In this document: positions 6,178-36,173 of the stretch, one piece after another | How positions within the stretch are numbered: the stretch's first letter is position 1 | How the letters are laid out: the number at the start of each line of letters is the position of its first letter | Source of the DNA: PVC group bacterium | GTDB taxonomy: Bacteria > Verrucomicrobiota > Kiritimatiellia > SS1-B-03-39 > UBA6053 | NCBI GenBank assembly: GCA_003565035.1 | Contig: PXDP01000306.1 | Coordinates: 1 to 36,173 of the forward strand | Length of the DNA: 36,173 nucleotides | Direction: 5' to 3' | Notes under the pieces: model-generated | What the model saw: only the letters and a program-made list of their open reading frames with translations | What the model was told of the DNA's origin: nothing | Database searches by the model: none | Program-made: the position numbers and the translations under genes

Positions 6178-6188
6178 CTCATGGATCG

Positions 6189-8450
6189 TCAGGATAAGCC
6201 TATGGCGAGTGCACAACCAATCGTCCTGTAAACTCCGGCAAACAGCAATCCTACTGCTGCTCCCGGACCGGAAAGTGCAGAAAAGACCAGCAAGAGTGCT
6301 CCGATATAATTACAAATAAAACATCCAGCGGTCATATTTTCATGACACACATACATTGACGCCAGAAGGGCAACCAATTTCGCACCGATCAGGACTACTT
6401 TCGCGCCGTACATGGCGGTTCCGCCGCCCCATCCTTCATCGCCGATCCGGCCCAGTATTTCACCGGTTTCGGGATTGAGTTCCCACCATGCTGTTTTTTC
6501 AACCGGGAGACGGTCCAGTGAATCGGGGATCATCAGCACCAAATCCTGCTCAAGGGCTTTTTCAAGGTGATGTTGAATTCTTGGAGAAAACGAGTGAGCC
6601 TTGAGATCCTCGCGGGATTCAAGGGTAACCCAGGCATCCGCCCCGGTTTGCTCCATTAACAAGGAGGTGCTGACCATCTTCGGGTTACGCATTTCCACAA
6701 TGACGGATTCCACCAGTGCATCCACCATCCCCTGCATAAACACCGGCCCGGTTTGCCGGTCCGTGGAGTTCACACGGTTGCCGAGAATATCTATACCGGT
6801 ACGGAGATAGGTCTCATTTTCTTCTCCAAGCATCGGCTGATTATGCCAGGCGACAAGATTCGCTTCGGCCAAAAACACATGATTCATGGATGGATTGAAT
6901 TCAGCGCGGGTGGTGGCCCAGTCATACAACTCTTCGGGGAAAACATCTAAGTTTTCCAATGAGGCCTGGACCTGAGCCGGGTTATTTCCGGCTTCAAAAT
7001 GCAGGGCTCCCAGCATGGCCGGCCGGCTGGCAAGCAGATGATCGAGCTGCCGGGCGGATGCAAATTCACGCTGTATGAAACCCGTTTGCATTAACACGCT
7101 GGACTGACGGCTCAGGGCCATTCCACGAAAGATTTTTTCTTCGTCGTTCAGTTCCACCACATCCGCATGGGAGCTATTCCGGGCAGGGTCTTCCGGAAAC
7201 ACATCGTAAACACGCCGGACCTCTTCGCGCACCTCTCCGCCGGGATGCTCCCATTGAAACACCAGATCCACTCCCGTCAGGAGACTCTGCGGGCGGCGGT
7301 CTGCGCCTCTGAGCCCGATGGCCCCCAAAGCACCTGTCGCTTGGGTGACCGCCCGTCCAGTAGCCGTTTGCATATGATTATCGTTCAGGACACCTTGTTC
7401 ATCGAACCCCATCTGGAGGATCAGATCATTTCCGATTTCGAGAAAAGGAACCCAGTTTGAGCTTACTTTCATTTGCCGCAACACTTCGTCAAGGTACCCT
7501 TCTCCAAGCTCCCGCATCCTTTCAAAACTTAAGTTCATCTCGTCGTTCATCAACCCGACCTCAAAATGTGCATGGGTATAATCCGCCGGGCGCAGCGTGT
7601 GTTCCAGAGCGGTCTCGGTATGAAATCCATTTGCATCCCGGCGTTCAACCCGGACCACAAATGTGACCCGCTGATACAGCGCATCGTCAAGATCCTCAAT
7701 ACTCACCTCCGTGTCGGGATTCGGAACAGCGCCCCCGGCAGGGTTGAGACTCCGCTTGTCGCCGTCATGTTCCAGGACCACCCACCAAATCCTGGATGGC
7801 GTGAGGAGTGGAGACTCTTGCGGGGATTCGACCGCCTCAAGCCAGGATTGCAAAACGGGAATCTGCGTCTCCATCCGCCCGGCAATCCTTTCCATGCGCC
7901 GCTCCAAAATACCGGCCATTTCTGTGAACTGGGCAAGGCCATCGGGGTCTCCCTCCCCCTCAGGAATTTCCTGGACCGGTGGAAGCCACGCATCCCGGAG
8001 AGGGGCGTCGACAGTGAACGGAGCCTGTTTCACTTCGGCGGAGGCCAATTCAACCTGATGGCCGCCTAATTCCAAAAGCCGGGCCAGCAGAACAGCGCGG
8101 TCAATAGAATTTCCTGTGCCGTCCATCATGACGGCAGATGGCGAACGCAAGCGCCCCTCATACGGCACTTCCACCGTGTGCTCCATTACCCAGTCCAGCA
8201 GAGTTTGAGGATCATTTCCTATTCTGCGGATCAACTCGGCGGGATCGTAGCCCTCTCCGGTCAACATGTCCCGGTAGGCGCGAGCGGAACGAAAAAAGTC
8301 CTCCATAGCGGCAAGCTGCTCTTCGGCGGTCGGCCCGCCGTTCACCTCATCCGCAATCAGTACCGCCGATGGAAACAGCGTGGCGGCAAAGAGAACGACG
8401 GTTAAACAGGAGGCCTGAATACGACGCGTGAGGGGATGGCAGGTAAACAT
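6189..8450 (-). CDS. Exported transglutaminase-fold protein with hydrophobic C-terminal segment(s)
   Basis: 753 aa; N-terminal hydrophobic signal; transglutaminase-like core DPQTLLDWVMEHTVEVPYEGRLRSPSAVMMDGTGNSIDRAVLLARLLELGGHQVELA; C-terminal hydrophobic stretch VVLIGAKLVALLASMYVCHENMTAGCFICNYIGALLLVFSALSGPGAAVGLLFAG. Confidence 0.7.
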   Translation of the reverse strand: MFTCHPLTRRIQASCLTVVLFAATLFPSAVLIADEVNGGPTAEEQLAAMEDFFRSARAYRDMLTGEGYDPAELIRRIGNDPQTLLDWVMEHTVEVPYEGRLRSPSAVMMDGTGNSIDRAVLLARLLELGGHQVELASAEVKQAPFTVDAPLRDAWLPPVQEIPEGEGDPDGLAQFTEMAGILERRMERIAGRMETQIPVLQSWLEAVESPQESPLLTPSRIWWVVLEHDGDKRSLNPAGGAVPNPDTEVSIEDLDDALYQRVTFVVRVERRDANGFHTETALEHTLRPADYTHAHFEVGLMNDEMNLSFERMRELGEGYLDEVLRQMKVSSNWVPFLEIGNDLILQMGFDEQGVLNDNHMQTATGRAVTQATGALGAIGLRGADRRPQSLLTGVDLVFQWEHPGGEVREEVRRVYDVFPEDPARNSSHADVVELNDEEKIFRGMALSRQSSVLMQTGFIQREFASARQLDHLLASRPAMLGALHFEAGNNPAQVQASLENLDVFPEELYDWATTRAEFNPSMNHVFLAEANLVAWHNQPMLGEENETYLRTGIDILGNRVNSTDRQTGPVFMQGMVDALVESVIVEMRNPKMVSTSLLMEQTGADAWVTLESREDLKAHSFSPRIQHHLEKALEQDLVLMIPDSLDRLPVEKTAWWELNPETGEILGRIGDEGWGGGTAMYGAKVVLIGAKLVALLASMYVCHENMTAGCFICNYIGALLLVFSALSGPGAAVGLLFAGVYRTIGCALAIGLS

Positions 8451-8979: not shown

Positions 8980-9657
8980 TTACCGTCCGTCTCCCAAGGT
9001 AATATCTCCGGTCATCCCGTTCACCCGGATGCGCATGCGGTCGTTGCGGTTGTCCCGCAAAATCACCGTATGCGGATCGGTCATTCCGGATGGCGCATAA
9101 ACCACAAACCAGGTGCCATCCACCTCCTCAGCGCCCCGAACCGCCTCCACCACCACATGCGCGCTGAGTTGACGGCGCCGAATGCGCTCGATCTGATCCG
9201 ATCCAAAATCCGGGTCCTCCTGAAGGCGCGCCGCCGGACTGTCCAGAAAAGGACCTAAAGCCAGCTCCTGCACCGGTAACTGCAGCAATTCCACAACCCC
9301 GCCCTCCCGGTCATAGAGCACCGCCACCGGCCGACGGTCCAAAATCGCCCGTGCCCGCGCATAGCGGTTCAGCGACACCACATCGCGGGTGGCCGAGCGC
9401 AGCCGAACCCCCTCGATCGAATCCAGCGCAATCGGCATAAACGCCCCCGCCACAATCGCAATCACCAGCACCACCAGCAGAATTTCCAGCAGCGTGAAGC
9501 CGCGTGCGGAGTGCGGAACGCGGAGCTTGCCCGCTAAAGAATTTTCGGAATGCTGAATAGAAGAAGAGGTCAGAGGGCAGAAGTCAGAGGGCCGTTGCGT
9601 CGGCGGCCATTCTGACCTCTGACCTCTCACTTCTGACCTCTCCCCAAACACGTTCAT
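8980..9657 (-). CDS. gspH: GspH-like pseudopilin
   Basis: 225 aa ORF with motif SARG^FTLLEILLVVLVIAIVAGAFMPIALDSIEG...RDVVSLNRYARARAILDRRPV. N-terminal ~53 aa is repeat-derived, so the start is uncertain. Confidence 0.7.
   Translation of the reverse strand: MNVFGERSEVRGQRSEWPPTQRPSDFCPLTSSSIQHSENSLAGKLRVPHSARGFTLLEILLVVLVIAIVAGAFMPIALDSIEGVRLRSATRDVVSLNRYARARAILDRRPVAVLYDREGGVVELLQLPVQELALGPFLDSPAARLQEDPDFGSDQIERIRRRQLSAHVVVEAVRGAEEVDGTWFVVYAPSGMTDPHTVILRDNRNDRMRIRVNGMTGDITLGDGR
9504..9524. repeat. Heptamer repeats GTGCGGA-GTGCGGA-ACGCGGA inside the gspH leader-coding region
   Basis: Direct reading; inverted relative to heptamers at 9686..9717. Confidence 0.85.
9566..9644. repeat. Imperfect inverted repeat of GAGGTCAGAGGG-type words with GGCC-containing tip
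   Basis: Left GAGGTCAGAGGGCAGAAGTCAGAGGG (9566..9591); right TCTGACCTCTGACCTCTCACTTCTGACCTCTCC (9611..9644). Confidence 0.85.
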
Positions 9658-10304: not shown

Positions 10305-11612
10305 TCACTGGATCCCCTTGCTCAACTGAAAAACCGGAAGCAGCATACTGATGGCCACAAAGCCGACCGCCCCCGCGATAAAAATCATCAACACCGGTTC
10401 AATCACGGTGGTAAACAGCTTAATGTTGCGGGTGAGTTCATCATCATAGCGCCGGGCAATTTGCGCCAGGGACCGGGGCACCTCTCCGGCCTCCTCGCCA
10501 ATGGCCAGCATGTCCGTGAACACCTCCGGAAACACCCCGCTCTCGGCCAGCGGCCGCGAAAGCGAGGAGCCATCCGTCACCCGCGATTTCAAGGCCCCGA
10601 TTTCTTTTTCGAGCACCGCGTTGCCCACGGTTTTCTGGACAATGTCCAGCGCCCGAAGCACCGGCACCCCGTTGGTCAGCAGGTTCGACAGCGTCCGCGC
10701 AAAATTCGCATACGCGCCGGTGCGGATCACCCGGCTGAATACCGGAACCTTCAGCAAAAAGCCGTGCCACGTGTAACGCCCCGCATCGGTATGCCGCCAG
10801 ACATGAAAACCATAACCGATGCCGCCAAATGCCAGGGCAATGAAAATTCCGTATCGCATCAGGCCGTCACTCATGGCAATCAGCAAAGCCGTCGGCCAGG
10901 GCAGGGCCTGCCTCAAATCAATGAAAATTTCGGTGAACTGCGGAATCACCCAGATCAGACAGGCCACAATGGTCAGCACCCCGAACACCGCGACAATGCA
11001 GGGATACACCAGCGCGCCGACCATTTGCTCCTTCGCCGCCGCCGCCCGCTCGTAGTGCCGCACCGCATTCTCCAGAGCCTGCTGCAACTGACCGCCCGCC
11101 TCCCCGGCGCGGATGACGGAGGTATAAAATTCCGGAAAACTCCGGGGATGCTTTTTCAGGGCCTCCGACAGACTTTTCCCCTGCACAATATCCTCATGCA
11201 CCGTTTTGAGCACCGCCGAGCGCGCCGGGTTTCCGCTCTGACGGCTCAGCTTCTGCATGCTCGCCCCCAGCGTCATCCCGGCCGAGAGGAGATCCCGCAG
11301 ATCGATCGAAAACTGCAACAGGACCCGCATGGAAAGCTTGCCGCCGCGCGGCGCCGAGTGGATCAAGGCCGGGCGGGCTTTTCCGGGAGCGGACGTTCCC
11401 ACAGGCTTTTTCGCCGCCGCTTTGGCGGAACCGGGTTTTTCCGGCCTACGCTTCGCGGGTGCAGACACGCTCCCCGGCCGCTCCGCCACCTGAATCGGCG
11501 TCAACCCCCGCCCGCGCAGAAGCGAAACCGCCGCAAGACGGTCCGCCGCCTCCAGCTCTCCGCTGGCGCGCTCCCCCGTCCGGTCTCTGGCTGTGTAAGT
11601 AAATGTTGGCAT
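10305..11612 (-). CDS. gspF: Type II secretion inner-membrane platform protein GspF
   Basis: MPTFTYTARDRTGERASGELEAADRLAAVSLLRGRGLTPIQV N-terminus; T2SSF repeats (LLSAGMTLGASMQKLSRQSGN..., NLLTNGVPVLRALDIVQKTVGN); C-terminal FTTVIEPVLMIFIAGAVGFVAISMLLPVFQLSKGIQ. Confidence 0.93.
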   Translation of the reverse strand: MPTFTYTARDRTGERASGELEAADRLAAVSLLRGRGLTPIQVAERPGSVSAPAKRRPEKPGSAKAAAKKPVGTSAPGKARPALIHSAPRGGKLSMRVLLQFSIDLRDLLSAGMTLGASMQKLSRQSGNPARSAVLKTVHEDIVQGKSLSEALKKHPRSFPEFYTSVIRAGEAGGQLQQALENAVRHYERAAAAKEQMVGALVYPCIVAVFGVLTIVACLIWVIPQFTEIFIDLRQALPWPTALLIAMSDGLMRYGIFIALAFGGIGYGFHVWRHTDAGRYTWHGFLLKVPVFSRVIRTGAYANFARTLSNLLTNGVPVLRALDIVQKTVGNAVLEKEIGALKSRVTDGSSLSRPLAESGVFPEVFTDMLAIGEEAGEVPRSLAQIARRYDDELTRNIKLFTTVIEPVLMIFIAGAVGFVAISMLLPVFQLSKGIQ

Positions 11613-11630
11613 GTTCTTTAACAAAATTCT

Positions 11631-11665
11631 CTACCCTCTGCCCTCTACCCTCCAACCTCTTCCTC
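11631..11665. repeat. CTACCCTCTGCCCTCTACCCTCCAACCTCTTCCTC short-word repeat at the gspE/gspF junction
   Basis: CTACCCT/GCCCTCT-type words; spans the gspE stop codon (11645..11647). Confidence 0.75.
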
Positions 11666-13372
11666 ATATTCCTCCTCCGCATCCTCCGACACCCGCAGCA
11701 CCTCCTCAATGGTGGTCACCCCGGCCAGCACTTTGCGCCAGCCGTCCTCGCGCAGCGTGGTCATTCCGTCCGCCGTGGACACACCGCGGATGCGGCTGGC
11801 CGGTTCGCGCGACACCACCAGCTGCCGGATTTCATCGGTCACCGTCAGAATTTCGTAAATCCCGCTCCGGCCGCGGTATCCGCTGTTCCGGCAGGCCTCG
11901 CAACCCACCGCCTCGTAGACCGTCCCCTCCTTCATGCGGTGCACCGGGAACTGAACCTCCCGCAAATAGGCCCGGTCCATCTCTTTCGGACGCTTGCAGT
12001 CCGGACACAGCGTGCGGATCAGCCGCTGAGCCACAATCGCCTCGATCGACGACGCGACCAAAAACGGCTCCACCCCCATGTCCAGCAAACGCGTGAACCC
12101 GCTCGCCGCGTCATTCGTGTGCAGGGTGCTGAACACCAGGTGACCCGTCAGCGCCGCCTGAATCGCAATCTCCGAGGTTTCCTTGTCGCGGATCTCCCCG
12201 ATCATGATCACATCGGGATCCTGACGCAGAATATGACGCAGGCCCACCGCGAACGTCAGCCCGATCTCCGGTTTCATCTGAATCTGGTTGATCCCCGCCA
12301 TTTCGTATTCAATCGGATCCTCACAGGTGATAATCCGTTTATCCACCGAGTTGATCGTATTGAGATAGGTGTACAGCGAGGTCGATTTCCCCGAGCCCGT
12401 CGGCCCCGTCACCAGCACAATGCCATGCGGGCGGTGGATGATTTTATCGAGTTTCTTCACGTCCTCCGGCACCAGGCCCAGCTTGCCCATGCCGAAAAGT
12501 GTGGACTGACGCAGCAGCAGACGCAGGCTCACGCTTTCGCCGTAGACCGTCGGCATCGTCGACACCCGGATATCGATCTCCTCCCCCCGGATCCGCAATC
12601 CGATACGCCCATCCTGCGGCAGGCGCTTTTCGGCGATATCCATGTTCGACATCACCTTCAAACGGGAAATAATCGCCGATTGAAACCGCTTCAGGCTCGC
12701 CGGCACCGGTGTCTGCACCAGCAGCCCGTCAATGCGGTAGCGGATACGCAAATCCTTCTCCATCGGCTCCATGTGAATATCGGTGGCCCCGTCCTTGTAG
12801 GCCTCCCAGATAATCTGGTTCACAAATTTCACCACCGAAGCCTCCTCATCCAGATCCGCCAAATCCGCATCCAGCAGGTCATCCTCGTCCGACATCTCCA
12901 GCCGTCCGTCATCCAGCATCCGTTCAATGGTTTCGCCCCCCACCCCGTACAGACGTTTAATCGCCTTTTCCAGATCGCTCTGCAGTGCCAGCGCGAAGCG
13001 GATCCGGCGACCGCCCGAGGCCAGCCGCAAGGCCTCCGTCAGTCCCGCCCGGAACGGATCGCGTGTCACCACCCGCAGCACCCCGCCCTCCGCCTCCAGC
13101 GGCAGCACCTGATACTGGTACACCGCCTTGGCCGGCAGCATTTCCAGCACCTCCGGTGCCGGAGACACCTCCGCCAGCCGCACAAACGGCACCTTCATCG
13201 CCTCCGCCAGCGCCCGCAGAAACACCTCCTCGCTTGTCCCGCCCTGCGCCACCGCCCGCTCCGTAATCGACCCGCCCTCCATCCGCTGCGCGGACAGCCA
13301 CGACAAAATCTGGTCCTCTGAAAACAGACCGGTTTGATGCAAAAGAGATGAACAGCGCGAGGCAACAAGCAT
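11645..13372 (-). CDS. gspE: Type II secretion / type IV pilus assembly ATPase GspE/PilB
   Basis: 575 aa; Walker A GPTGSGKS, Asp box, Walker B-like DPDVIMIGEIRDKETSEIAIQAALTGHLVFSTLHTNDA, CxxC pairs (CPDC, CEAC). Confidence 0.95.
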   Translation of the reverse strand: MLVASRCSSLLHQTGLFSEDQILSWLSAQRMEGGSITERAVAQGGTSEEVFLRALAEAMKVPFVRLAEVSPAPEVLEMLPAKAVYQYQVLPLEAEGGVLRVVTRDPFRAGLTEALRLASGGRRIRFALALQSDLEKAIKRLYGVGGETIERMLDDGRLEMSDEDDLLDADLADLDEEASVVKFVNQIIWEAYKDGATDIHMEPMEKDLRIRYRIDGLLVQTPVPASLKRFQSAIISRLKVMSNMDIAEKRLPQDGRIGLRIRGEEIDIRVSTMPTVYGESVSLRLLLRQSTLFGMGKLGLVPEDVKKLDKIIHRPHGIVLVTGPTGSGKSTSLYTYLNTINSVDKRIITCEDPIEYEMAGINQIQMKPEIGLTFAVGLRHILRQDPDVIMIGEIRDKETSEIAIQAALTGHLVFSTLHTNDAASGFTRLLDMGVEPFLVASSIEAIVAQRLIRTLCPDCKRPKEMDRAYLREVQFPVHRMKEGTVYEAVGCEACRNSGYRGRSGIYEILTVTDEIRQLVVSREPASRIRGVSTADGMTTLREDGWRKVLAGVTTIEEVLRVSEDAEEEYEEEVGG

Positions 13373-13423: not shown

Positions 13424-14686
13424 TTACCGTACCGTCATCACCTCCTCCAGCCGGGTGGTGTAGCAGGGACTGACCCGTTCCTGGCGCAATTTCCACTGCT
13501 CGCGCCGAAAGCCGGCCGCAGCCGTGCGCAGTACCGCTTTGCCGTATTTTTGGTTCACCGCGTCCATCACCCCCATCACCTTTCTCCGATGCAGCCCCGG
13601 ATCCACGGCAAACAAATCCTGCTGCACCGCGCCGGGCCGCACCAGACCCGACAGCCAGACCCCCACTTTTTTGTAACGGTATCCCGCCCGGAAAATCCGC
13701 TCCAGCCCGCGCTCCGCGTGCCGGGTCAGTTCCAGTGTATCATCCGTCGGCACCGGCAGACGGACCTTCGTCTGGTTCACGTACTGGGCATCCCCCTCCC
13801 GGAAACGATTGGTCTCCAGATAGACCGTCAAATGCCCCGCCAGCGAGCCCTGCCGCCGCAGCTTTTCCCCGCACTCCGCCACATAATAGGCCAGTGCCTC
13901 GCGGATCAGCCCTTCATCCTCCAGGGTCTGCCCGAAGCTTTTGGCGGTGCCGATCATCTGTTTTGCCGGCGGGGTCAGTTCCAGAGCCAACTGCGGTTCG
14001 CCGAGCAGCTCCCGTTTCAGGCGCAGGCCCACCACCGTCAGTTCTTTGCGCACCCAGGCATCCGGCAGGCGGGTGAAGTCCGCCGCCGTCCGCACCCCGT
14101 GCCGCGCCAGGCGTTCGGCAATGCGCCGCCCGATCCCCCAGACCTCCTCCACCGGAAATGCCGCCAGCGCCGCCGCCCGGGACGCTTCATCCGCGATCAC
14201 AAACACATTCCGGGTCCGGTCCCGCTCCCGTTTCGCCAAATGATTCGCCACTTTCGCCAGAGCCTTGGTTTCCGCAATCCCCACCCCCACCGGCAGCCCC
14301 GTCCACTGCATCACCCGCTCCCGCACCCGGTGCCCGTATGCCGTCAAATCAGATTCCAACACCGGAACCTCCACAAAGGCCTCGTCAATGCTGTACACCT
14401 CCAGCGAAGCCCCCAGCGTCGCCAGCGTCTCCATCACCCGCTGGCTCATGTCGCCATACAGGGGATAATTCGACGAAAACACCGTCACCCCGTGACTCTC
14501 CATAAGCGTCATATTCTCAAACGCCGGACGGCCCATGGAAATGCCCAGGGTCTTGGCCTCCCGGTTCGCCGCGATCACACAGCCGTCATTATTGCTCAGC
14601 ACCGCGACCGGACGCCCCCGGAGATCCGGCCGGAACACCTGTTCGCAACTCGCATAAAAACTGTTCACGTCCACCAAAGCAATCAT
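13424..14686 (-). CDS. umuC: Y-family DNA polymerase, UmuC (Pol V catalytic subunit-like)
   Basis: 420 aa; [56 protein letters not shown] and [11 protein letters not shown] catalytic motifs; UmuC-like C-terminus. Confidence 0.94.
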
Positions 14687-17798: not shown

Positions 17799-19337
17799 TC
17801 AGCCTTTAAACTGAACGGAATAGAGATCGTCCCGGCGGTCGATGAGATTGCGGACGCTTCCGTGGGCGTGGAGTTCTTTGAGCAGGTCGAGATCGACATC
17901 GGCAATGAGAACCATCTCGGTGTTGGGCGTGGCTTCGGCTTTGACGACGTTGGTCGGGAAGGCGAAATCCGACGGCGTGAGAATGGCACTCTGCGCGTAT
18001 TGAATATCCATGTTGTTCACGTTGGGCAGGTTGCCCACCGCCCCGGCAATGACCACATAGCATTCGTTTTCGATCGCCCGGGCCTGCGCACAGTGGCGCA
18101 CACGCTGATACCCGTTCTGGGTGTCGGTCAGAAAGGGTACAAAAAGAAGATTCACGCCCTGATCCGCCAGGATGCGGCCCAATTCGGGGAATTCGACATC
18201 ATAGCAGATCAGAATCCCGATCTTCCCGCAGTCGGTGTCGAAGGCTTTGACTTCATTTCCGCCGCGCATGCCCCAGGCGGTGACTTCCGAGGGGGTGGGA
18301 TGGATCTTGTTGAACACTTCCCAGGTGCCGTCCCGGCGGCAAAGGTAGGCCGCGTTGAGCAACTGGTCGCCCTCGAGGGCCGGCATGCTGCCGCAGATGA
18401 TATTCACGTTGTAGGACACCGCCAGTTCCAAAAATCTGCGCCGCAGCGGATCGGCGGTTTCAGCGAGCTTGCGCATGGCCGCAGCCTCGCCCAGATGGTT
18501 GAAGGGTGCCATCAGCGGCGCATTGAAAAACTCGGGAAACACAATAAAATCGGATTCGTAATCTGACACCGCATCGATGAAATATTCCGCCTGCTCCATC
18601 AGGCGGTCCATATCGGAAAACGGGCGCATCTGCCACTGCACCACCCCGAGGCGCACGACGGATTTCTTGGTTTCGACCAGGGGCTGCTCGCTTTCCTGAT
18701 AGTAGATATTCGACCATTCAAGCAGGGTGGCGAACTGATGCGATTCTTTGTCGCCCGGCAGATAGTTTTCGAGAACCTTGCGCACATGGAAGCCGTTACT
18801 GAGCTGAAAACTCAGCACCGGATCCACAATCTCTTTTCGCCGGACTTTTTCGATGTATTCGTGCGGCTTCATTTCGTGCGCGTACTTGCCATAGTTCGGA
18901 ATTCGGCCGCCCGCCATGATCGCGCGCAATTCCAGATGCTCGCAGAGATCTTTGCGGGCATCGTACAGACGCCGACCCAGGCGCAGCCCGCGGTAATCCG
19001 GGTGCACAAACACCTCAATGCCATAAAGGACATCCCCCTCGGGATCGTGATTTTTAAAACTTTCCCCCGCAACAATCTGATCGTAGGTATGGTTGTCGCC
19101 GAATTTTTTGTAGTCCACAATCACCGACAGGGCACTGGCGGCGACTTTTCCGTTCACGGTCACGCAGAACTGACCTTCCGGAAAGAGGTCAATCAGCCGT
19201 TCCAGGCTTTCCCGCCGCCAGGAGACATGTCCCCAGCTCGAGTACGCCTGGCGCAGGCTCATGTTCAAATCCAGATAATCTTCAATGCGAAGATTGCGAA
19301 GTTCAATAACCGGAGAGGGTGTTTCATTATCCATCAA
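17799..19337 (-). CDS. Bifunctional GNAT N-acetyltransferase / carbon-nitrogen hydrolase (nitrilase superfamily)
   Basis: 512 aa; GNAT motif YGIEVFVHPDYRGLRLGRRLYDARKDL; nitrilase E-K-C triad contexts FIVFPEFFN, FNKIHPTPSE, GILICYDVEFPELGR. Confidence 0.92.
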   Translation of the reverse strand: MMDNETPSPVIELRNLRIEDYLDLNMSLRQAYSSWGHVSWRRESLERLIDLFPEGQFCVTVNGKVAASALSVIVDYKKFGDNHTYDQIVAGESFKNHDPEGDVLYGIEVFVHPDYRGLRLGRRLYDARKDLCEHLELRAIMAGGRIPNYGKYAHEMKPHEYIEKVRRKEIVDPVLSFQLSNGFHVRKVLENYLPGDKESHQFATLLEWSNIYYQESEQPLVETKKSVVRLGVVQWQMRPFSDMDRLMEQAEYFIDAVSDYESDFIVFPEFFNAPLMAPFNHLGEAAAMRKLAETADPLRRRFLELAVSYNVNIICGSMPALEGDQLLNAAYLCRRDGTWEVFNKIHPTPSEVTAWGMRGGNEVKAFDTDCGKIGILICYDVEFPELGRILADQGVNLLFVPFLTDTQNGYQRVRHCAQARAIENECYVVIAGAVGNLPNVNNMDIQYAQSAILTPSDFAFPTNVVKAEATPNTEMVLIADVDLDLLKELHAHGSVRNLIDRRDDLYSVQFKG

Positions 19338-24013: not shown

Positions 24014-24080
24014 AAAAGTTTCGTTTATAAACTAAACTTAATCTAATTCATGAAAAACATCATCTATAAACGAAACTTTT
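24014..24080. repeat. Perfect 16-bp inverted repeat spanning the start codon of the DUF4143-type ATPase
   Basis: AAAAGTTTCGTTTATA (24014..24029) and TATAAACGAAACTTTT (24065..24080). Confidence 0.9.
24016..24039. promoter_or_regulatory. 24-nt near-perfect palindrome (putative operator) 10 nt upstream of the ATPase ATG
   Basis: AAGTTTCGTTTATAAACTAAACTT; one mismatched pair. The left arm recurs inverted inside the CDS at 24065..24080. Confidence 0.6.
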
Positions 24081-25276
24081 ACCAGAGACAAATTACCCCG
24101 TGGATCGATAAAAGTGTGATCAAAGTGCTCACCGGAATGCGCCGTGTTGGAAAAAGCTGTTTGCTGCGCCAGGTGATGGATGAGCGGGAAGCTGCTGGGA
24201 TCCCGAAAGGAAACTTAATTTGGATCGACAAGGAGTCTGTAGACTTTGATTTTATAGAGACCTACAAACACCTGATTGAACATCTTGAGGGCCTGCGCAT
24301 ATCCAGCCCATTTGTGGAGGGGATGAAATATTTGTTCATCGATGAAGTTCAGGAGATCACCGGCTGGGAGCGGGCGGTCACTTCGTTGCTCAAAGACGGG
24401 GACTGGGATATCTATCTGACCGGGTCCAATGCCCACATGCTGTCCTCGGAGCTGGCCACCCTGCTTTCCGGGCGGTATGTTGAAATAGCCGTTTATCCAC
24501 TGAGCCTGCCTGAATTTCTGCGCTTCAACGGCCTGGAAAAGGACCGGGCCCGCGAAATCCTTCCCCTCTATCTTCGCCATGGCGGTTTTCCTGCCCTGCA
24601 CCAGTTTCAGGGCAATGAAACCACCGTGTATCAGTATATCAATTCCCTTTACGACACCATTGTCCTCAAAGACATTGTAAGCCGGCACGAACTCCGGAAT
24701 GTCCCTCTTTTTCAGCAGATCAGCCGGTTTGTTTTCGACAACATTGGCAATCCCTTTTCCGCCAAGCGGGTGGCAGACTACTTGAAATCCCAACGGCTGA
24801 AGGTGACGGTGGACACCGTTCAGAACTATCTCGGATACCTCACGGAAACCTTCGCACTGTATCAGGTCCGCCGATATGACATTAAAGGACGCAGACACCT
24901 GGAAATCTACGACAAATATTATCTGGGGGATATTGGTCTGCGCAACGCCCAGCTTGGATATCGGAATGACGCCATCAGCGGACTCCTCGAAAACCTTGTT
25001 TTTCTGGAACTCCGCCGCCGGGGGCACCGCGTGGATATTGGCAAAATTGGCGATGCGGAAGTTGATTTTGTGGCAAGCTCAGAAAACGGGGTGCACTATT
25101 GGCAGGTCTGTTACCTGCTGGCTTCGGAAGAGACCCTTGACCGGGAGTTCGGTGCGCTGGCCCGAATCCCTGACAACCATCCCAAAACCGTACTCAGCCT
25201 CGATCCTGTATCCCCGGGGAACAGAAACGGCATTTCCTGGATGTCGATCATCGATTTTCTGATGGGCAATGGCTGA
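24050..25276 (+). CDS. AAA family ATPase, DUF4143 type
   Basis: 408 aa; Walker A LTGMRRVGKSCLLRQ, Walker B YLFIDEVQEITGWE, GSNAHMLSSELATLLSGRYVEIAVYPLSLPEFL, C-terminal LENLVFLELRRRGHRV...GDAEVDFVA. Confidence 0.93.
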   Translation: MKNIIYKRNFYQRQITPWIDKSVIKVLTGMRRVGKSCLLRQVMDEREAAGIPKGNLIWIDKESVDFDFIETYKHLIEHLEGLRISSPFVEGMKYLFIDEVQEITGWERAVTSLLKDGDWDIYLTGSNAHMLSSELATLLSGRYVEIAVYPLSLPEFLRFNGLEKDRAREILPLYLRHGGFPALHQFQGNETTVYQYINSLYDTIVLKDIVSRHELRNVPLFQQISRFVFDNIGNPFSAKRVADYLKSQRLKVTVDTVQNYLGYLTETFALYQVRRYDIKGRRHLEIYDKYYLGDIGLRNAQLGYRNDAISGLLENLVFLELRRRGHRVDIGKIGDAEVDFVASSENGVHYWQVCYLLASEETLDREFGALARIPDNHPKTVLSLDPVSPGNRNGISWMSIIDFLMGNG

Positions 25277-29620: not shown

Positions 29621-32600
29621 GTGAAACTCATGAAAAAACTTCTGAAAATCGTTCTGTTTTTCTTTGTTGGCATTTTTTTGCTGATCTTTTTGGCCTTGGC
29701 CTTCATCCTGAACAGCGCCGGCACGCAAACCAATGTTGTTCGGCAGGGCCTGCCCGAGGGAATGACCCTCGAAAAAGCGCACGTTGGCCTCGGCGGGCTG
29801 ACCGTGGAACAGCTCCACGGCGAGGTGGATTCCGTGAAAGTCTCTCTGGAGCGCCTGCGCGTTGACTTCCCCCTGATGCGGACTCTGTTCAGCCGCAAAC
29901 TTCATATCCGCGAACTCAGCCTGTCTGGATTTGTTTTGGATCTCACCGACTTCGAACCCAAACCGGCGGAAAAAGCCCCTACCGCCCCCCCGCGACAACC
30001 TGCTCCCACCACCCAAACGACCCGCTCTGCCCCTGCCGATGATTTCAACGGACTGTTTCAGGACATCAAATTGCATGGACTGATTGTCGACAAGGTGTCC
30101 ATCGATGCCCGCGTCATCCTTCCCGGCGGCGAACAAAACGCGCGGATTACAATCTCCGGTCAGGATATCACGCCGGAAAACCAACCCTCCTTAACCCTGG
30201 TCCTGGCCTATGAAGATCAACAGGCTGAAGCCGTTATTCCCTTGGCCCGGCTTACCGCAGATCTCGGCCTGATCCTGCGCGATGAAAATATTCTGAGCGG
30301 AATCCTCCTCGAACTGCTCGCCGATGTCGACGTTCGTTCCGAGGATCAGAGGGAAACCCTCCAACTCGGCGGACGGATTGATCTGGCCGAAAACACCGAC
30401 CGGAGCGGTGAAACCTATTCCCTGCGCCTGACCCTTTTCCCGGGATCCGAAAACGAGGCGGACCTCGTTGACCTGAATGCGGTCTTCGCTTTCGCGGAAC
30501 GCGCCCTCACCGGGAACGGCACGATCCGGGCGGACACCCGCTCGGTTGCCTTTTTTGTCGATCCGTTTTTAAAAGGTGCCTGGGCCAGAGCGGACGGTGA
30601 AGTCGCGTTTGCCTTCTCCACCGCCACAGAGGTCCAGTCCATGCAGGGAACCCTTTCCGTTCAGGCCAATGACCTGGAAAATTTCCGCCCGGAACTGGCC
30701 TCCGTTCCCACCGTCCTCCTTGAGAGTGCTTTTGATCTGTCGGCCGATTCCGAAAAAGCCGAAATCCGTGAGCTGCGCGTGCTCCTGGCCGCCCCCAGGG
30801 AAACCCCGCTGCTGCAAGTCGACACCCGGCAGACCTTTGGCGTTCATCTGAAGACAAACGAGCCCTTTTTCAGCACCCCCGGAGAACCGCTGGTTGAAAT
30901 GGCGCTGTCCGGTCTGCCGGTCGATTTGGTCAACGGACTTGTGCCGGACCTGAACCTCTCTCTCGAAGCCTTTGTCGGACGTCTGATCCTTTCCGGCGAA
31001 GGACAGCGTTTCCGCCTGGCCACAACCGAGCCGATCACGCTGCGCGGTCTGAGCCTCTCCCCGGAGGGTGTTCCCCTGGTGTCAAATCTGAACATCTCCG
31101 TCTCCCCCTCCGCCGCGTACGATCCGGAAAGCCTGAGTTTCGACCTGGGCGCATTCACCCTCACGGGTAACGGTATGGACATCGCCGAAATCCGCGCCAG
31201 CGGTTCAGTCACCCAACTGCCGGAAGATCCTGAACTGGATGTCACCGCCACCTGGCGGATTGATCTGCCCGCTCTGCTTGCGCAGCCCTTTGGCGAACCG
31301 TTCCGAAACAGCTCGGACGGAGAACTCACCGGAACCCTCAACGCCAAAGGCGGCGAAGACGATTTCAAGGCCTCCCTCGATGTGGCCCTGCGCGAACTCC
31401 GCGTGGCCGACACCGGAGAAACCGTCGACAACCTGACGCTCTCGCTGAACGTTCTTCCCGACGGGTCTGATCGCTTCGACGTATCCGGCCCCCTCCGCAT
31501 TACCGCCGCGGATCACACCACCGGCTTTGATCTGAACCTCTCCCTTGACCTGAGCGGTGATGTCCCCGATCTGCGCCTCCAAAGCCGGAGCAAACAGATC
31601 CACAGTCAGCATTTCACCACCCTCGCAGCCGCATTCGCCAATCCGGAGGCCACCTCTCCCGAACCCTCCGGCGCAGCCCAGGAGACGGACCGAGCGGAAG
31701 CCCGGCCCGCCTCCCGCGAACCGGATACCAAACCGGTTTGGGACGGCGTGCTCGCCCATGCGGATCTGGAAGCCGGCCGAATCTTTCTGCCCGGGAACAT
31801 CCGGCTCAAAAACCTCAAACTTCAGGCCTCGGTGACGGAACGGGAAGCCAAACTCGACACTTTTTCAGTCATGATCGATGATGCCATAGCCCGCGCGGAA
31901 GGCGGACTCCGCTTCCGGGATGATCACCCGGAACACCCCTACCGACTGCATACCGAACTCAGTTTCCGGGATTTTAATGTCGGGAATTTTCTTCGCAGTG
32001 TGGCCCCCGATGAGGAACCCGCGCTTGAAGCGGTCATTTCCATGGAGGGAGCCGCCGCCGGTGAATCCCCGAACCTCGGGATCCTCGCCGAATTTGTTAC
32101 CGGGGAATTCAAATTTTCCGCTGAAAACGGAACCCTCCGCGCCCTGCGTCGCGGCGCGGTGTCCGCCGGAGCCCAGGTGGGCGGCGTGACCGGCCGACTT
32201 GGCGGCATGGTCACCGGCCGGGGGGATGCCGAGGCGGTCGGTCAACTCGCCACATACTTTAATGCAATTGAATTTGAAACCCTGGCGCTGGATGTCCGCC
32301 GTGAGCCAAACTTTGATCTCTCCCTCACCGACTTCACCCTGCACAATCAGGATCTTCGGCTGCAGGGAAGCGGAAAGGTCACCCATATGGAGGATCAACC
32401 CATGACCGAACACCCGCTTCGTCTGGAATTGGCACTGGCCGCCCGTCCGCCTCTGGCCAATTTGTTTGAGTCCATTCACCTCCTGCAGGAAATACCCGAT
32501 GAACGCGGCTTCCGTTCGCTCCTTCGGCCGGTGGTGATCCAGGGTACGGTGGCAAAACCGGATGCGCGCGCCCTCTGGACGATCATCGCCGAAGCCGGTG

Positions 32601-32701
32601 CCCGCGCCGCCGCCGAAAGGGCCGTTCGGCCCGCGGAACCTCAGGAGGGCGAACCATCGGAACCCGCCGAGCGCCGCCGCCCGCGCATTCCAAGTTTTTA
32701 G
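29621..32701 (+). CDS. AsmA-like envelope protein
   Basis: 1026 aa; single N-terminal TM (LLKIVLFFFVGIFLLIFLALAFILN), long beta-rich body, C-terminal AsmA-like region (GNFLRSV...LEAVISMEGAAAGESPNLGILAEFVTGEFKFSAENGTLRAL...QDLRLQGSGKVTH). Confidence 0.7.
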   Translation: MKLMKKLLKIVLFFFVGIFLLIFLALAFILNSAGTQTNVVRQGLPEGMTLEKAHVGLGGLTVEQLHGEVDSVKVSLERLRVDFPLMRTLFSRKLHIRELSLSGFVLDLTDFEPKPAEKAPTAPPRQPAPTTQTTRSAPADDFNGLFQDIKLHGLIVDKVSIDARVILPGGEQNARITISGQDITPENQPSLTLVLAYEDQQAEAVIPLARLTADLGLILRDENILSGILLELLADVDVRSEDQRETLQLGGRIDLAENTDRSGETYSLRLTLFPGSENEADLVDLNAVFAFAERALTGNGTIRADTRSVAFFVDPFLKGAWARADGEVAFAFSTATEVQSMQGTLSVQANDLENFRPELASVPTVLLESAFDLSADSEKAEIRELRVLLAAPRETPLLQVDTRQTFGVHLKTNEPFFSTPGEPLVEMALSGLPVDLVNGLVPDLNLSLEAFVGRLILSGEGQRFRLATTEPITLRGLSLSPEGVPLVSNLNISVSPSAAYDPESLSFDLGAFTLTGNGMDIAEIRASGSVTQLPEDPELDVTATWRIDLPALLAQPFGEPFRNSSDGELTGTLNAKGGEDDFKASLDVALRELRVADTGETVDNLTLSLNVLPDGSDRFDVSGPLRITAADHTTGFDLNLSLDLSGDVPDLRLQSRSKQIHSQHFTTLAAAFANPEATSPEPSGAAQETDRAEARPASREPDTKPVWDGVLAHADLEAGRIFLPGNIRLKNLKLQASVTEREAKLDTFSVMIDDAIARAEGGLRFRDDHPEHPYRLHTELSFRDFNVGNFLRSVAPDEEPALEAVISMEGAAAGESPNLGILAEFVTGEFKFSAENGTLRALRRGAVSAGAQVGGVTGRLGGMVTGRGDAEAVGQLATYFNAIEFETLALDVRREPNFDLSLTDFTLHNQDLRLQGSGKVTHMEDQPMTEHPLRLELALAARPPLANLFESIHLLQEIPDERGFRSLLRPVVIQGTVAKPDARALWTIIAEAGARAAAERAVRPAEPQEGEPSEPAERRRPRIPSF

Positions 32702-32705
32702 CAGA

Positions 32706-33791
32706 TTAAGGCCAATCCTTGGCGACGGTGAGCATACTGCCGCGGGTATCGACCGCCAGGCGCCAGTAGGCGATGGCCGCGCCGGGATCGCCTTCGAGAT
32801 AGAAAAGCATGGTGTTGACCGGGATGCCGCCCGGAATACCCCGCACCGCCTCCTGAAACAACTGCATCCGCCGCGCGCCGCTCACCGCCCGGCGCAGCGC
32901 GGGCGGTCGTCGGTCCATGGTCGGCAGGCTGTCGGTGAGCAGAATAATATTGTCGGGCCTGGGGCTCATCGCCGCAGCCCAGTCGAACGCCAGATGCAGG
33001 CTCGATCCGCTGGACGGAACAATCGCCTCCAGCGCCTCCGCCGCCGCATCGCGCACCGCCGGATCCGCCGCCGACCACCAGCCGGCGTCGGTCAGCAGTG
33101 AGCGGGCCTGGTCGTGAAACACCGCGACTTGAAACTGTCCTTCGGCCGGGAGATTTGCCAGCAGCCATTCCACCGTCCGCCGCACCTGCACCCATTTTGT
33201 GGCCTCTTGCTGCTCCGCCGCCGGCAGGTTGCGGATCCGCAGCACATCCACCAGATTTTCCGCCAGCATACTCGCGCTGATGTCCACCAGAACCAGGGTC
33301 CGCTCCCCGCGCAGTTGCAGACCGGTGAGATACTGCCTGCGGCCGTCGCCCCTGAACATCCGCAGCGCCTCGCCCTCCTCCTCCGCCTCGGCCCCGGCCC
33401 GCAGGCGCTTGAGTCCTTCTTCAAGACTCAGCAAATCCGTTTTGAGCTGGTTCACATGCTCCTCGGTGGCCAGGGTCTCCCCCTCAAAGCGCGCCAGCTC
33501 CTCCCTCGCCTCCTCCAACAGCGTCAGCACCTCCCGGCTCAACCCCTGTGTCTCCTCAATCTCTTCGATCAGTTCATCCAGCGCATTGCGGGCCAGGACC
33601 TTTTCGCGCTCCAGATTCAACACCTCGATCTCCACCAGATCCACCTCCCCGCGTAAATCCTGCACCCGTTCCTCACGGATTGTCGATGAACGGGCGTTCA
33701 TGAGCACAAACAACAGAATCACCGCCCCGAAGCCGCAGCAAATGCAGTCGAGAAAACTCAGGCTGAAGACGGTAAATTTACGCCGCGCCAT
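32706..33791 (-). CDS. Membrane-anchored vWA-domain protein with ExbD/TolR-like N-terminal helix and coiled coil
   Basis: ORF 32706..33863; start placed at ATG 33791 (MARRKFTVFSLSFLDCICCGFGAVILLFVLMNARSS). Coiled coil (LRGEVDLVEIEVLNLEREKVLARNALDELIEEIEE...), then vWA MIDAS LVLVDISASM and IILLTDSLPTM. Confidence 0.87.
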   Translation of the reverse strand: MARRKFTVFSLSFLDCICCGFGAVILLFVLMNARSSTIREERVQDLRGEVDLVEIEVLNLEREKVLARNALDELIEEIEETQGLSREVLTLLEEAREELARFEGETLATEEHVNQLKTDLLSLEEGLKRLRAGAEAEEEGEALRMFRGDGRRQYLTGLQLRGERTLVLVDISASMLAENLVDVLRIRNLPAAEQQEATKWVQVRRTVEWLLANLPAEGQFQVAVFHDQARSLLTDAGWWSAADPAVRDAAAEALEAIVPSSGSSLHLAFDWAAAMSPRPDNIILLTDSLPTMDRRPPALRRAVSGARRMQLFQEAVRGIPGGIPVNTMLFYLEGDPGAAIAYWRLAVDTRGSMLTVAKDWP

Positions 33792-34803
33792 GGTGCCCCC
33801 GGACATGCACCGCCAAGGCCGTGCGGCCGTCCGGCAGCGTGACGCGTTCCCCGGGCGCGGCATCCCCCGGCCAGGGCTCAGCCACCCCGTCGATCACCAC
33901 ATGCGTGGCCCGCAAACCTTGACCGGCGCTCAACGGCCCCAAATGCTCGCGCCAGCGCGCCGAAGGGGCATCATGATCCTCCACCTCCACCTCCGCGCCC
34001 GGGGAGGGTTCGGCGGTGGCACGCGACCAGCCCAGCATCCGCAAGAACGCCGCCGGCGCGACGACCGTCTCCGCATCCGTCACATCCGCCAGCACATTCG
34101 TGTGCAGACGGGCAAAGCGCTCCCGTTCATCCGACAAGGCCATGCGCCCGCCGTCCGGAGTTGAAACGGACCAGGCCTTGCCCTCCCCCAGTGCGGTCCA
34201 CCATCCCGAAAACAGACCCTGCTCTGTTCGGCCCGAGTAAAGGGGGTCAAAGCGGAATTCTTCCAGTGCCAGATCCTGCACCGCCAGGGCCTCCCGCCGG
34301 AAACAGGCCAGAATTCCGGCCTCCGCAAGGTTCCTCCCCCCCTCCTGCCGCCATCCGCCGTCCTCGCCCCGCACAAAATGCACCTGTTGCAAACGGGTCC
34401 ACGACCATTCCAGCACCGAGCAGGTGTCTCCGTCCAACGCCGCACGCGCCGCGACCGCCCCTGCCCGGGAGCTCAGCCAGCGAACCGGAATGTCCGCCGC
34501 CGCCGCCGCGCCGAGAAACACCCGCATCTCCTCTTTTTCCCAGCCTGCGGGCACCAGCGCGACACAGGGCTCTTTTCCGGCATCGCCCGCCGCCTGCAGC
34601 ATGCGGACCGCCAGATCGGCGCGGTGCCGCACGCCATCTCGCTTTGCCGCCAGCGGGATCAGCGACATCGCCTCCCATACATCCCAGCAGGTCGCCAGCG
34701 GATCCACCCGGCAGGCGGCCATGGCCTCCGCGCCGAAGCGCCAGGCCCCGCTGTTCCACACCGCCAGCCCCCGGGTCACCGGATGTAAATCCAGCAACTT
34801 CAT
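33778..34803 (-). CDS. Putative actin/Hsp70-fold-like protein (divergent)
   Basis: ORF 33778..34947; start placed at ATG 34803 (MKLLDLHPVTRGLAVWNSGAWRFGAEAMAA), overlapping the TolQ-like gene stop by 4 nt. Hsp70-like order of elements: RFGAEA, CVALVPAGWEKEEMRVFLGAAAAADIPVRWLSSRAGAVAARAAL. Weak similarity by eye. Confidence 0.5.
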   Translation of the reverse strand: MKLLDLHPVTRGLAVWNSGAWRFGAEAMAACRVDPLATCWDVWEAMSLIPLAAKRDGVRHRADLAVRMLQAAGDAGKEPCVALVPAGWEKEEMRVFLGAAAAADIPVRWLSSRAGAVAARAALDGDTCSVLEWSWTRLQQVHFVRGEDGGWRQEGGRNLAEAGILACFRREALAVQDLALEEFRFDPLYSGRTEQGLFSGWWTALGEGKAWSVSTPDGGRMALSDERERFARLHTNVLADVTDAETVVAPAAFLRMLGWSRATAEPSPGAEVEVEDHDAPSARWREHLGPLSAGQGLRATHVVIDGVAEPWPGDAAPGERVTLPDGRTALAVHVRGHHGAA

Positions 34804-35627
34804 CCCGCCAACTCCGCACGCGCCTCGCGGGTCACGTGCAGGTGCCGAATCAGTTTCTGTTCCGCGTAATCCTGCACATCCAGCACATAGCGCTCCTGCT
34901 GCAACTGCAACTGATGCACCACAAACATCAGCAGGATACTCAGACACAGCGCAATCAGCGTCGAATTAAACGCCGTGCCCAGACTCTGGGTCACAGGCCC
35001 GATCTCCCCCTCCACCGCCGCGTGCGCTTTGGACAGTGCCAGCCCGATCCCGCGCACAGTCCCGATGAACCCAATACTCGGAATCGCCCAGGCGATATAG
35101 CGGATCATGCTCAGTTCCGACTCCTGCCGCTCCCCCTCCGTCAGGCAAATCTGCGTCACGGTCTCCGACACGTCCTGCACATTCCTCGTCGATTCAAAAC
35201 GGTGAAGTGCCGCCAGAAGTGTCCGCGGAAGCAGGGCCGAACGCTGATCCTCGGGGAGAGCCTGGACCTGACGGCTCAGATCCCGCGCGTCCACCGGCAG
35301 AATGCGTTTCCCCTCCTCCACCTCAATAAACTCCCTCCGCAGCAGCCCCAGATCGTCCCGCAACAGTTTGCCTTTATAGGCCATCGAGGCCAGCGCCCAG
35401 AACAGCAGAATAAAGCAGGCCTCCTGCTCATAGTCCTTGAGAATCACCGCCAGGGATTGGGGAACATCCACATCCGGCTGTGTCTCCCGGATTTCCGCCG
35501 CCTGCTCCATCGCCACCATCGCCCGGGGGCGGATGATCAGCTCGTAGGCCGTATGAACCAAAACCACAATCACTGCCAGAGCCAGAGCCTGGAATACAAA
35601 TTCTTTAGAGCCGTTTCGGGTACGCAT
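34800..35627 (-). CDS. MotA/TolQ/ExbB proton channel family protein
   Basis: 275 aa; C-terminal TolQ/ExbB hallmark RYIAWAIPSIGFIGTVRGIGLALSKA...GPVTQSLGTAFNSTLIALCLSILLMFVVHQLQ; additional N-terminal TMs. Confidence 0.87.
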   Translation of the reverse strand: MRTRNGSKEFVFQALALAVIVVLVHTAYELIIRPRAMVAMEQAAEIRETQPDVDVPQSLAVILKDYEQEACFILLFWALASMAYKGKLLRDDLGLLRREFIEVEEGKRILPVDARDLSRQVQALPEDQRSALLPRTLLAALHRFESTRNVQDVSETVTQICLTEGERQESELSMIRYIAWAIPSIGFIGTVRGIGLALSKAHAAVEGEIGPVTQSLGTAFNSTLIALCLSILLMFVVHQLQLQQERYVLDVQDYAEQKLIRHLHVTREARAELAG

Positions 35628-35682
35628 CGTTAGAAGGTAGAATGTCCGGGATGAGATGTCAAGCGCACCGGAGGCTCCCGGA

Positions 35683-36173
35683 TCAATTCAGCCCCTCCAC
35701 CACCCGTACATCCACCTCCAGGCCTTCGCTGCCGGCGGGGACTGTAAACGGCACCCGGACATCCCGGTATCCCAGGCGCGAACCCACCGCCACATAGTCC
35801 CCCGGCAGCAAGTCCTCCGTGCGCGCCACAAAAACACCCCACCGCCCCACCCGCAGCAGCGTAACCTCCGTCTCGGCATCGGAGGTGAAGCGCACCGGCA
35901 CCGGCGTCCTTTCCAAACGCCAGGCTTCCAAAAAAGCATCCGCTTTGGATTTGAGGCCCTCCGGCAGCGTCGGCCCCTCCCACGCCTGCAAATCCGCAGC
36001 CACCCCGTCCGACAAGGTGCTTCGAATCGCACCCGAAGCCCGGTCAATCCGCTCCTCCAGCACCCGGAACACCCGCGTGCGTTCCAGTCCCACCGACACT
36101 GCGGCCTCCGGGTCTAAACGCCCCAACTGCAGCCAGGCCCGGTGAGCGCCCTCCCAGTCCTCCTCCGCCTCCA
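35683..36173 (-). CDS. PEGA-domain-like protein, partial (N-terminus beyond the window)
   Basis: Frame stays open past the listed start (…EDWEGAHRAWLQLGRLDPEAAVSVGLERTRVFRVLEERIDRASG…); C-terminus LLPGDYVAVGSRLGYRDVRVPFTVPAGSEGLEVDVRVVEGLN resembles a PEGA-type beta module. Confidence 0.65.
   Translation of the reverse strand, partial: EAEEDWEGAHRAWLQLGRLDPEAAVSVGLERTRVFRVLEERIDRASGAIRSTLSDGVAADLQAWEGPTLPEGLKSKADAFLEAWRLERTPVPVRFTSDAETEVTLLRVGRWGVFVARTEDLLPGDYVAVGSRLGYRDVRVPFTVPAGSEGLEVDVRVVEGLN

Follow-up and report, generated by a model that had tools for sequence, protein, structure and literature searches.

Putative ion-driven envelope motor with a TolQ-like channel and vWA-domain partners encoded at a rearranged Kiritimatiellia locus

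Which partner would a TolQ-like channel protein drive when no TolR or ExbD gene lies beside it? The question is raised by four minus-strand open reading frames at one end of the window, as we call the whole 36,173-nucleotide stretch of DNA analyzed here, which is the complete contig C114 (PXDP01000306.1) of the draft genome of a PVC group bacterium (GCA_003565035.1; 526 contigs, ~91% complete). The frames encode a PEGA-like protein (PEGA1), a TolQ-like protein, an actin/Hsp70-like protein (act) and a vWA protein (vWA1), and in a scan with the latter the near relatives of the source genome are labelled Verrucomicrobia/PVC. The frames were found where the initial annotation had placed them, and coordinates and sequence bear out its tight packing: 55 nucleotides separate the PEGA-like gene from tolQ, tolQ and act overlap by 4 nucleotides (34800-34803; TCAT on the plus strand, ATGA on the minus strand), and act and vWA1 overlap by 14 (33778-33791). 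At its 5' end the PEGA-like frame runs off the contig, and only 162 residues are visible; neither this fragment nor act of the window has a Pfam hit. Altogether, we favor, with reasonable confidence in the whole, a model whereby the locus encodes an ion-driven trans-envelope motor that is phospho-regulated in most lineages and apparently lacks that control here, the window holding a rearranged version, reduced in part, of a conserved trans-envelope system. The cluster, one copy of a widespread and unstudied kind, probably builds an inner-membrane ion-driven motor with paired vWA proteins as its moving shaft.

Comparisons with relatives refer to 80 related loci that were found in one scan with the window's vWA protein and on which profiles were then built. 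The TolQ-like protein belongs to the MotA/TolQ/ExbB channel family by its MotA_ExbB domain (PF01618, 1.4e-12, above the Pfam cut-off) and its pore threonines: in a profile match to TolQ in the PDB (8odt, E 0.005), GFIGTVRG with Thr190 aligns with GLFGTVWG of TolQ and AFNSTLIAL with Thr223 aligns with ALIATAIGL. The score against the TIGR02796 tolQ model (6e-5) is below that model's cut-off. In two groups of loci, the gene directly before tolQ encodes a small secreted protein with FPYDI or PYPTDI at its C-terminus (L029 5297-5680; L046 5321-5800), possibly a further subunit.

The vWA protein had been proposed as the TolR-like subunit, and its N-terminal part supports this assignment. The motif SLSFLDCICCGFGAVILLFVLMNA is present at its start, and conservation within the protein peaks in the transmembrane helix, with a mean top-residue frequency of 0.80 vs 0.56 in the coil and 0.62 in the vWA domain. 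Asp15 in this helix is invariant in 22/22 aligned vWA1 sequences, as is the equivalent D19 in all 18 aligned sequences of vWA2, a distinct family that has the SFLD helix, the coiled coil and the vWA domain in common with vWA1; a regular-expression search over raw reading frames found the Asp in 197 of 203, and the remaining six may be out-of-frame text. The C-terminal domain adopts a vWA fold with a metal-ion-dependent adhesion site (MIDAS) DxSxS motif. In the AlphaFold2 (AF2) model, helices span residues 11-102 and 107-134 and the vWA domain has a predicted local distance difference test (pLDDT) score mostly >90; Foldseek matched this model to vWA domains including BatB 3ibs (best 2e-7). D170, S172 and S174 of the motif are invariant in the vWA1 alignment, and DxSxS is present in most relatives. 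The Pfam match to VWA_2 (1.7e-4) is below the curated cut-off, sequence searches of the PDB with vWA1 and vWA2 returned mostly coiled-coil noise, and a viral structure library searched with vWA1 gave generic vWA proteins only. In one related genome (G007), the vWA1 gene is broken by several stops or frameshifts (L109 9193-10536).

A motor of this kind has already been predicted. An analysis of the origin and evolution of bacterial periplasmic force transducers (Mol Biol Evol 2025, PMC12204202) reported that vWA proteins tethered by a transmembrane helix co-occur with tolQ in the absence of tolR and exbD, mostly as heterologous pairs and in Proteobacteria and Verrucomicrobia (its section 8, Fig. 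4c-d), and its AF3 models place a TolR/ExbD-like helix with a conserved, proton-binding Asp inside the TolQ pentamer. The locus in the window shares two of these features: a tolQ-like gene lies beside a vWA gene without tolR or exbD, and the vWA protein has a TolR-like helix with a conserved Asp. The two families are very probably the same, a likeness drawn from the published description and not from a sequence comparison with its Idiomarina family. Because the TolQ/TPH-vWA pairing was predicted there, the motor core is not undescribed, as the initial annotation had it. However, the text of PMC12204202 makes no mention of the kinase, PEGA, Hsp70-like or FHA-domain partners that distinguish the present loci from the published family, and beyond its motor core we found no description of the wider operon in the open-access literature; the larger cluster, with an outer-membrane lipoprotein, a kinase, and phospho-binding and chaperone-like regulators, appears to be undescribed.

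The four-gene set is far from a chance arrangement, as the same gene string is present in dozens of genomes from several phyla. The 80 loci span Verrucomicrobia/Kiritimatiellae, Desulfobacterales, Gammaproteobacteria (many Woeseiaceae), Vicinamibacteria (Acidobacteria) and Phycisphaerales, and the order X-[kinase]-TPR-PEGA-like (PEGA1)-[FHA-like]-PEGA-FGE-tolQ-act-vWA1-vWA2 is found in 56/80, most others running off short contigs. Because these loci had been chosen by vWA1, an independent test of co-occurrence used 289 genomes of the phylum: 18 encode full-length vWA1 and 15 the act domain, and every genome with the act domain also has vWA1, with act lying directly upstream of it (P ~2e-22, with no correction for kinship). 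One further weak match to the Hsp70 domain (4e-8) is in G174. Among the vWA1 genomes, G180, G048 and G057 have no strong act match; G180 and G057 were mapped and have tolQ-vWA1-vWA2 alone. vWA2 adjoins vWA1 in 16 of the 18 vWA1-positive genomes of the phylum, and in a sample of the gammaproteobacterial class, where 20/274 genomes have vWA1, 18 of the 20 have an adjacent vWA2. The survey of gene order thus upholds the four genes as a co-conserved unit, but lipoprotein X, the FHA-like/PEGA/FGE protein and the kinase lie outside the window, where the operon is truncated relative to the full string: tolQ, act and vWA1 stand together with PEGA1 directly before tolQ and no FGE gene between, and the FGE gene of this genome sits elsewhere, probably split over contigs C497 and C505. 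Beside the minimal tolQ-vWA1-vWA2 loci, a glycine-zipper lipoprotein is divergently encoded (L136 10091-10762 (+); L138 7019-7642 (-)).

The conserved set also bears on whether the locus could serve in anti-phage defence or conflict in the manner of Zorya, where envelope disturbance is sensed by a MotA/ExbB-type motor that then triggers an effector. Zorya ZorAB similarly combines such a channel with a transmembrane partner bearing a periplasmic domain, PADLOC weakly matched the TolQ-like protein to ZorA2 (2.7e-5) and the kinase of relatives to PD-T4-6 kinases, and vWA, FHA and FGE domains co-occur in conflict systems described in passages of PMC7159879. However, the ZorA match stems from the channel domain common to both, the partner here carries a vWA and not an OmpA domain, and PADLOC found neither a ZorB-type partner nor further Zorya genes and had no match for vWA1 or act. 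Moreover, the conserved set contains no nuclease or other effector gene, a plasmid search gave no match, and in gammaproteobacteria the neighbors are steady housekeeping genes. We consider a Zorya-like role very unlikely, and a defence island was rejected on the absence of an effector and the stable neighbors.

The remaining proteins suggest where the motor acts and how it might be controlled. The window's PEGA1 fragment is 68% identical to the 432-residue transmembrane-TPR-PEGA-like protein of a congener (G004) and scores 171 bits with the PEGA1 family hidden Markov model. It was initially taken for a PEGA-like component; it is the C-terminus of a TPR/kinase-type membrane protein, and membership in Pfam PEGA (PF08308) was rejected, with no match for the fragment up to E 1 or for the congener's PEGA1 up to 0.5, and true PEGA repeats are found in the FGE gene. 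The full form of PEGA1 in relatives is Ser/Thr kinase-transmembrane-TPR-PEGA-like (Pkinase 1.8e-29, TPR_2); the kinase is held by 45 of 64 PEGA1 frames and carries catalytic motifs. The FGE protein of relatives consists of an FHA-like cytoplasmic domain, a transmembrane segment, four or five PEGA repeats and an FGE-sulfatase fold (8.7e-47, 5.4e-36). Lipoprotein X starts with a lipobox and matches no Pfam family, and the operon is followed by an OmpA-type protein in 40 loci, those that were checked being gammaproteobacterial. The FGE gene of relatives also scores 2.8e-21 against the GldK model, below its cut-off. Together with the OmpA, lipoprotein and PEGA parts, this resemblance suggests a role at the cell envelope. 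Similarly to GldKLMN of the type IX secretion system, a proton-motive-force motor would be accompanied by a periplasmic FGE-fold protein, but GldL and GldM are absent and the FGE protein has an inner-membrane anchor and PEGA repeats.

The act protein is related to Hsp70 by fold: its AF2 model (pLDDT 91) has its best Foldseek matches to Ssz1/Hsp70 domains (1.4e-11), and it aligns to the Hsp70 profile. Unlike Hsp70 and Ssz1, it has no substrate-binding domain, and the DLGGGT (GGGT) and GG loops, that is, the phosphate and adenosine glycine loops for ATP binding, are missing, these positions not being conserved across the aligned family. ATP binding by act is doubtful on these motifs and, because they are lost, an ATP-driven act regulator is unlikely; of the actin/Hsp70-like regulator originally envisaged, the fold stands but ATP as its driver does not. 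An ATP-driven actin filament was rejected on the same loops. Most relatives have an FHA domain at the C-terminus of act (2.8e-12), where SRRH and NG signatures are present, and outside this domain Pfam, NCBIfam and PADLOC gave no informative family; act of the window's clade has no FHA.

The kinase and FHA domains are distributed together. In 41 loci, the kinase is accompanied by FHA on act and by the FHA-like domain of FGE, both domains are missing from three loci whose kinase is degenerate, nine Desulfobacterales loci lack the kinase and the FGE FHA-like domain and keep FHA on act, and wherever act is without FHA the kinase is absent or degenerate. Because the congener's PEGA1 has a short cytoplasmic tail before the transmembrane segment and no kinase, and act of the clade has no FHA, the phospho-signalling modules appear to have been lost together in the window's lineage, with the loss of the kinase judged from the congener. 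A catalytic-motif kinase, FHA on act and PEGA/TPR periplasmic parts in one operon might alternatively mean that signalling is the main role, with the channel and vWA pair sensing the envelope state for a kinase/FHA pathway instead of generating force. We regard this as unlikely: act in the window has no FHA, and the kinase and FHA are dispensable, being absent together with act from divergent gammaproteobacterial operons (G496, G432) that keep X, PEGA1, FGE, tolQ, vWA1 and vWA2.

In our model of an ion-driven motor, a TolQ-like pentamer in the inner membrane would conduct ions around two Asp-bearing helices, one from vWA1 and one from its paralogue vWA2, which would replace the TolR/ExbD dimer in a 5:2 complex. 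Ion flow may rotate or tilt the helices, and this motion would travel along the coiled coils to the periplasmic vWA domains. The target of these domains would be a periplasmic/outer-membrane assembly that comprises lipoprotein X and the TPR/PEGA-like and PEGA-FGE proteins. On the cytoplasmic side, Ser/Thr phosphorylation by the kinase portion of PEGA1 would in most lineages be read by the FHA of the pseudo-Hsp70 act, which presumably docks on the cytoplasmic domain of TolQ. In the window's lineage, the FHA of act is gone and so, judging from the congener, is the kinase, and act may stay as a scaffold.

Several observations weigh against this model. Heterologous vWA pairs are adjacent in most relatives, and none was found in the window's assembly: with the congener's vWA2 as a query, only vWA1 was matched in this ~91% complete genome. 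The vWA protein thus qualifies as a motor partner by its Asp helix, but the partner is normally a pair, and half of that pair is not in the window; in the congener, whose vWA1 is 94% identical to the window's, the pair is split, with vWA2 on another contig. Divergent operons are without act, and act is therefore not part of the core. The counts that link kinase and FHA are inflated by shared ancestry, and the N-terminal domain of FGE is FHA-like by eye, with no FHA reported there by Pfam. Lastly, a profile built on five good seeds found ExbD neither on the contig, as had been noted initially, nor in any fetched related locus, but it found seven ExbD genes on other contigs of the window's genome; ordinary ExbD genes are present elsewhere in 20/20 genomes checked, in G299 ~6 kb beyond the fetched locus. 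The vWA proteins could accordingly be membrane-anchored periplasmic binders beside a channel that uses an ExbD/TolR from elsewhere, and the operon a TolA/TonB-like transducer system of the other published vWA type; PMC12204202 also describes a separate vWA transducer family with tolQR genes. However, the best conserved part of vWA1 is the helix with the invariant Asp, and the second vWA family is described there as without SHLS and with an Asp helix. An ExbD partner in trans is unlikely, and we assign the whole of this alternative a low probability.

The proposed motor differs from canonical systems. It resembles Tol-Pal (TolQ-TolR-TolA) in its TolQ-family channel with pore threonines and the Asp helix of its partner, but the operon has no gene for a TolR/ExbD-fold partner and none for TolA, TolB or Pal, the vWA partner has a coiled coil, and the channel protein has an extra hydrophobic segment. 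ExbBD-TonB shares the channel superfamily, and the operon has neither ExbD nor TonB. The ion-driven motors of the 5:2 type that are understood are few (Mot, Exb-Ton, Tol-Pal, Gld and Zorya), and the present one seems to use two different shaft subunits and to couple the motor to a eukaryotic-like kinase/FHA pathway. We speculate, tentatively and somewhat short of thinking it probable, that the published TolQ/vWA motor powers a larger trans-envelope machine as yet undescribed, in which a heterodimeric-shaft motor is switched by Ser/Thr phosphorylation via a dead Hsp70-FHA adaptor, some lineages, including this one, being without the phospho-switch. With the whole operon in view, what was published as a prediction of two components becomes a system that can be tested, its parts named and a regulatory switch expected; the relatives include a cultured host, Desulfosarcina alkanivorans (L058).

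Table 1 Features of the motor locus in the window
Feature	Position	Strand	Basis
vWA1: short basic N-terminus, one transmembrane helix, ~100-residue coiled coil, C-terminal vWA domain	32706..33791	-	Pfam, AF2, Foldseek
TolR/ExbD-like transmembrane helix, vWA1 residues 9-31 (FSLSFLDCICCGFGAVILLFVLM)	33699..33767	-	conservation
Codon of invariant Asp15 (SFLD), candidate ion-binding residue	33747..33749	-	vWA1 alignment A3; vWA2 equivalent from alignment A4
MIDAS motif DISAS, vWA domain residues 170-174	33270..33284	-	alignment A3
act: Hsp70 nucleotide-binding-domain-like, degenerate nucleotide motifs, without the relatives' usual C-terminal FHA	33778..34803	-	AF2, Foldseek, profile
TolQ/ExbB/MotA-family channel subunit, extra N-terminal hydrophobic segment	34800..35627	-	Pfam, TIGR02796, PDB profile
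Codon of Thr190 in GFIGTVRG, TolQ/ExbB pore-threonine position	35058..35060	-	invariant in TolQ-like alignment A2
Codon of Thr223 in AFNSTLIAL, second pore-threonine position	34959..34961	-	invariant in TolQ-like alignment A2
3' part of PEGA1: TPR-containing protein, PEGA-like C-terminal domain; start beyond contig end	35683..36171	-	congener identity, family HMM

Next to the locus, a large AsmA/YhdP-like protein (29621-32701 (+), weak Pfam match) is encoded convergently with the vWA gene, 4 nucleotides apart, and such a gene also adjoins vWA1 in the congener. Elsewhere in the window, a 1905-residue protein has a C-terminal vWA domain (PF13519, 3.4e-6; 499-6216 (-)), and near its gene lies a type IV pilus/type II secretion system-like cluster of a pseudopilin (8980-9657), a PilC/GspF-like protein (10305-11624) and a PilB/GspE-like protein (11645-13372). 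Further genes encode a UmuC-type Y-family DNA polymerase (13424-14686 (-)), a fusion of a GNAT acetyltransferase and a carbon-nitrogen hydrolase (17799-19337 (-)) and an AAA_14/DUF4143 ATPase (24050-25276 (+)).

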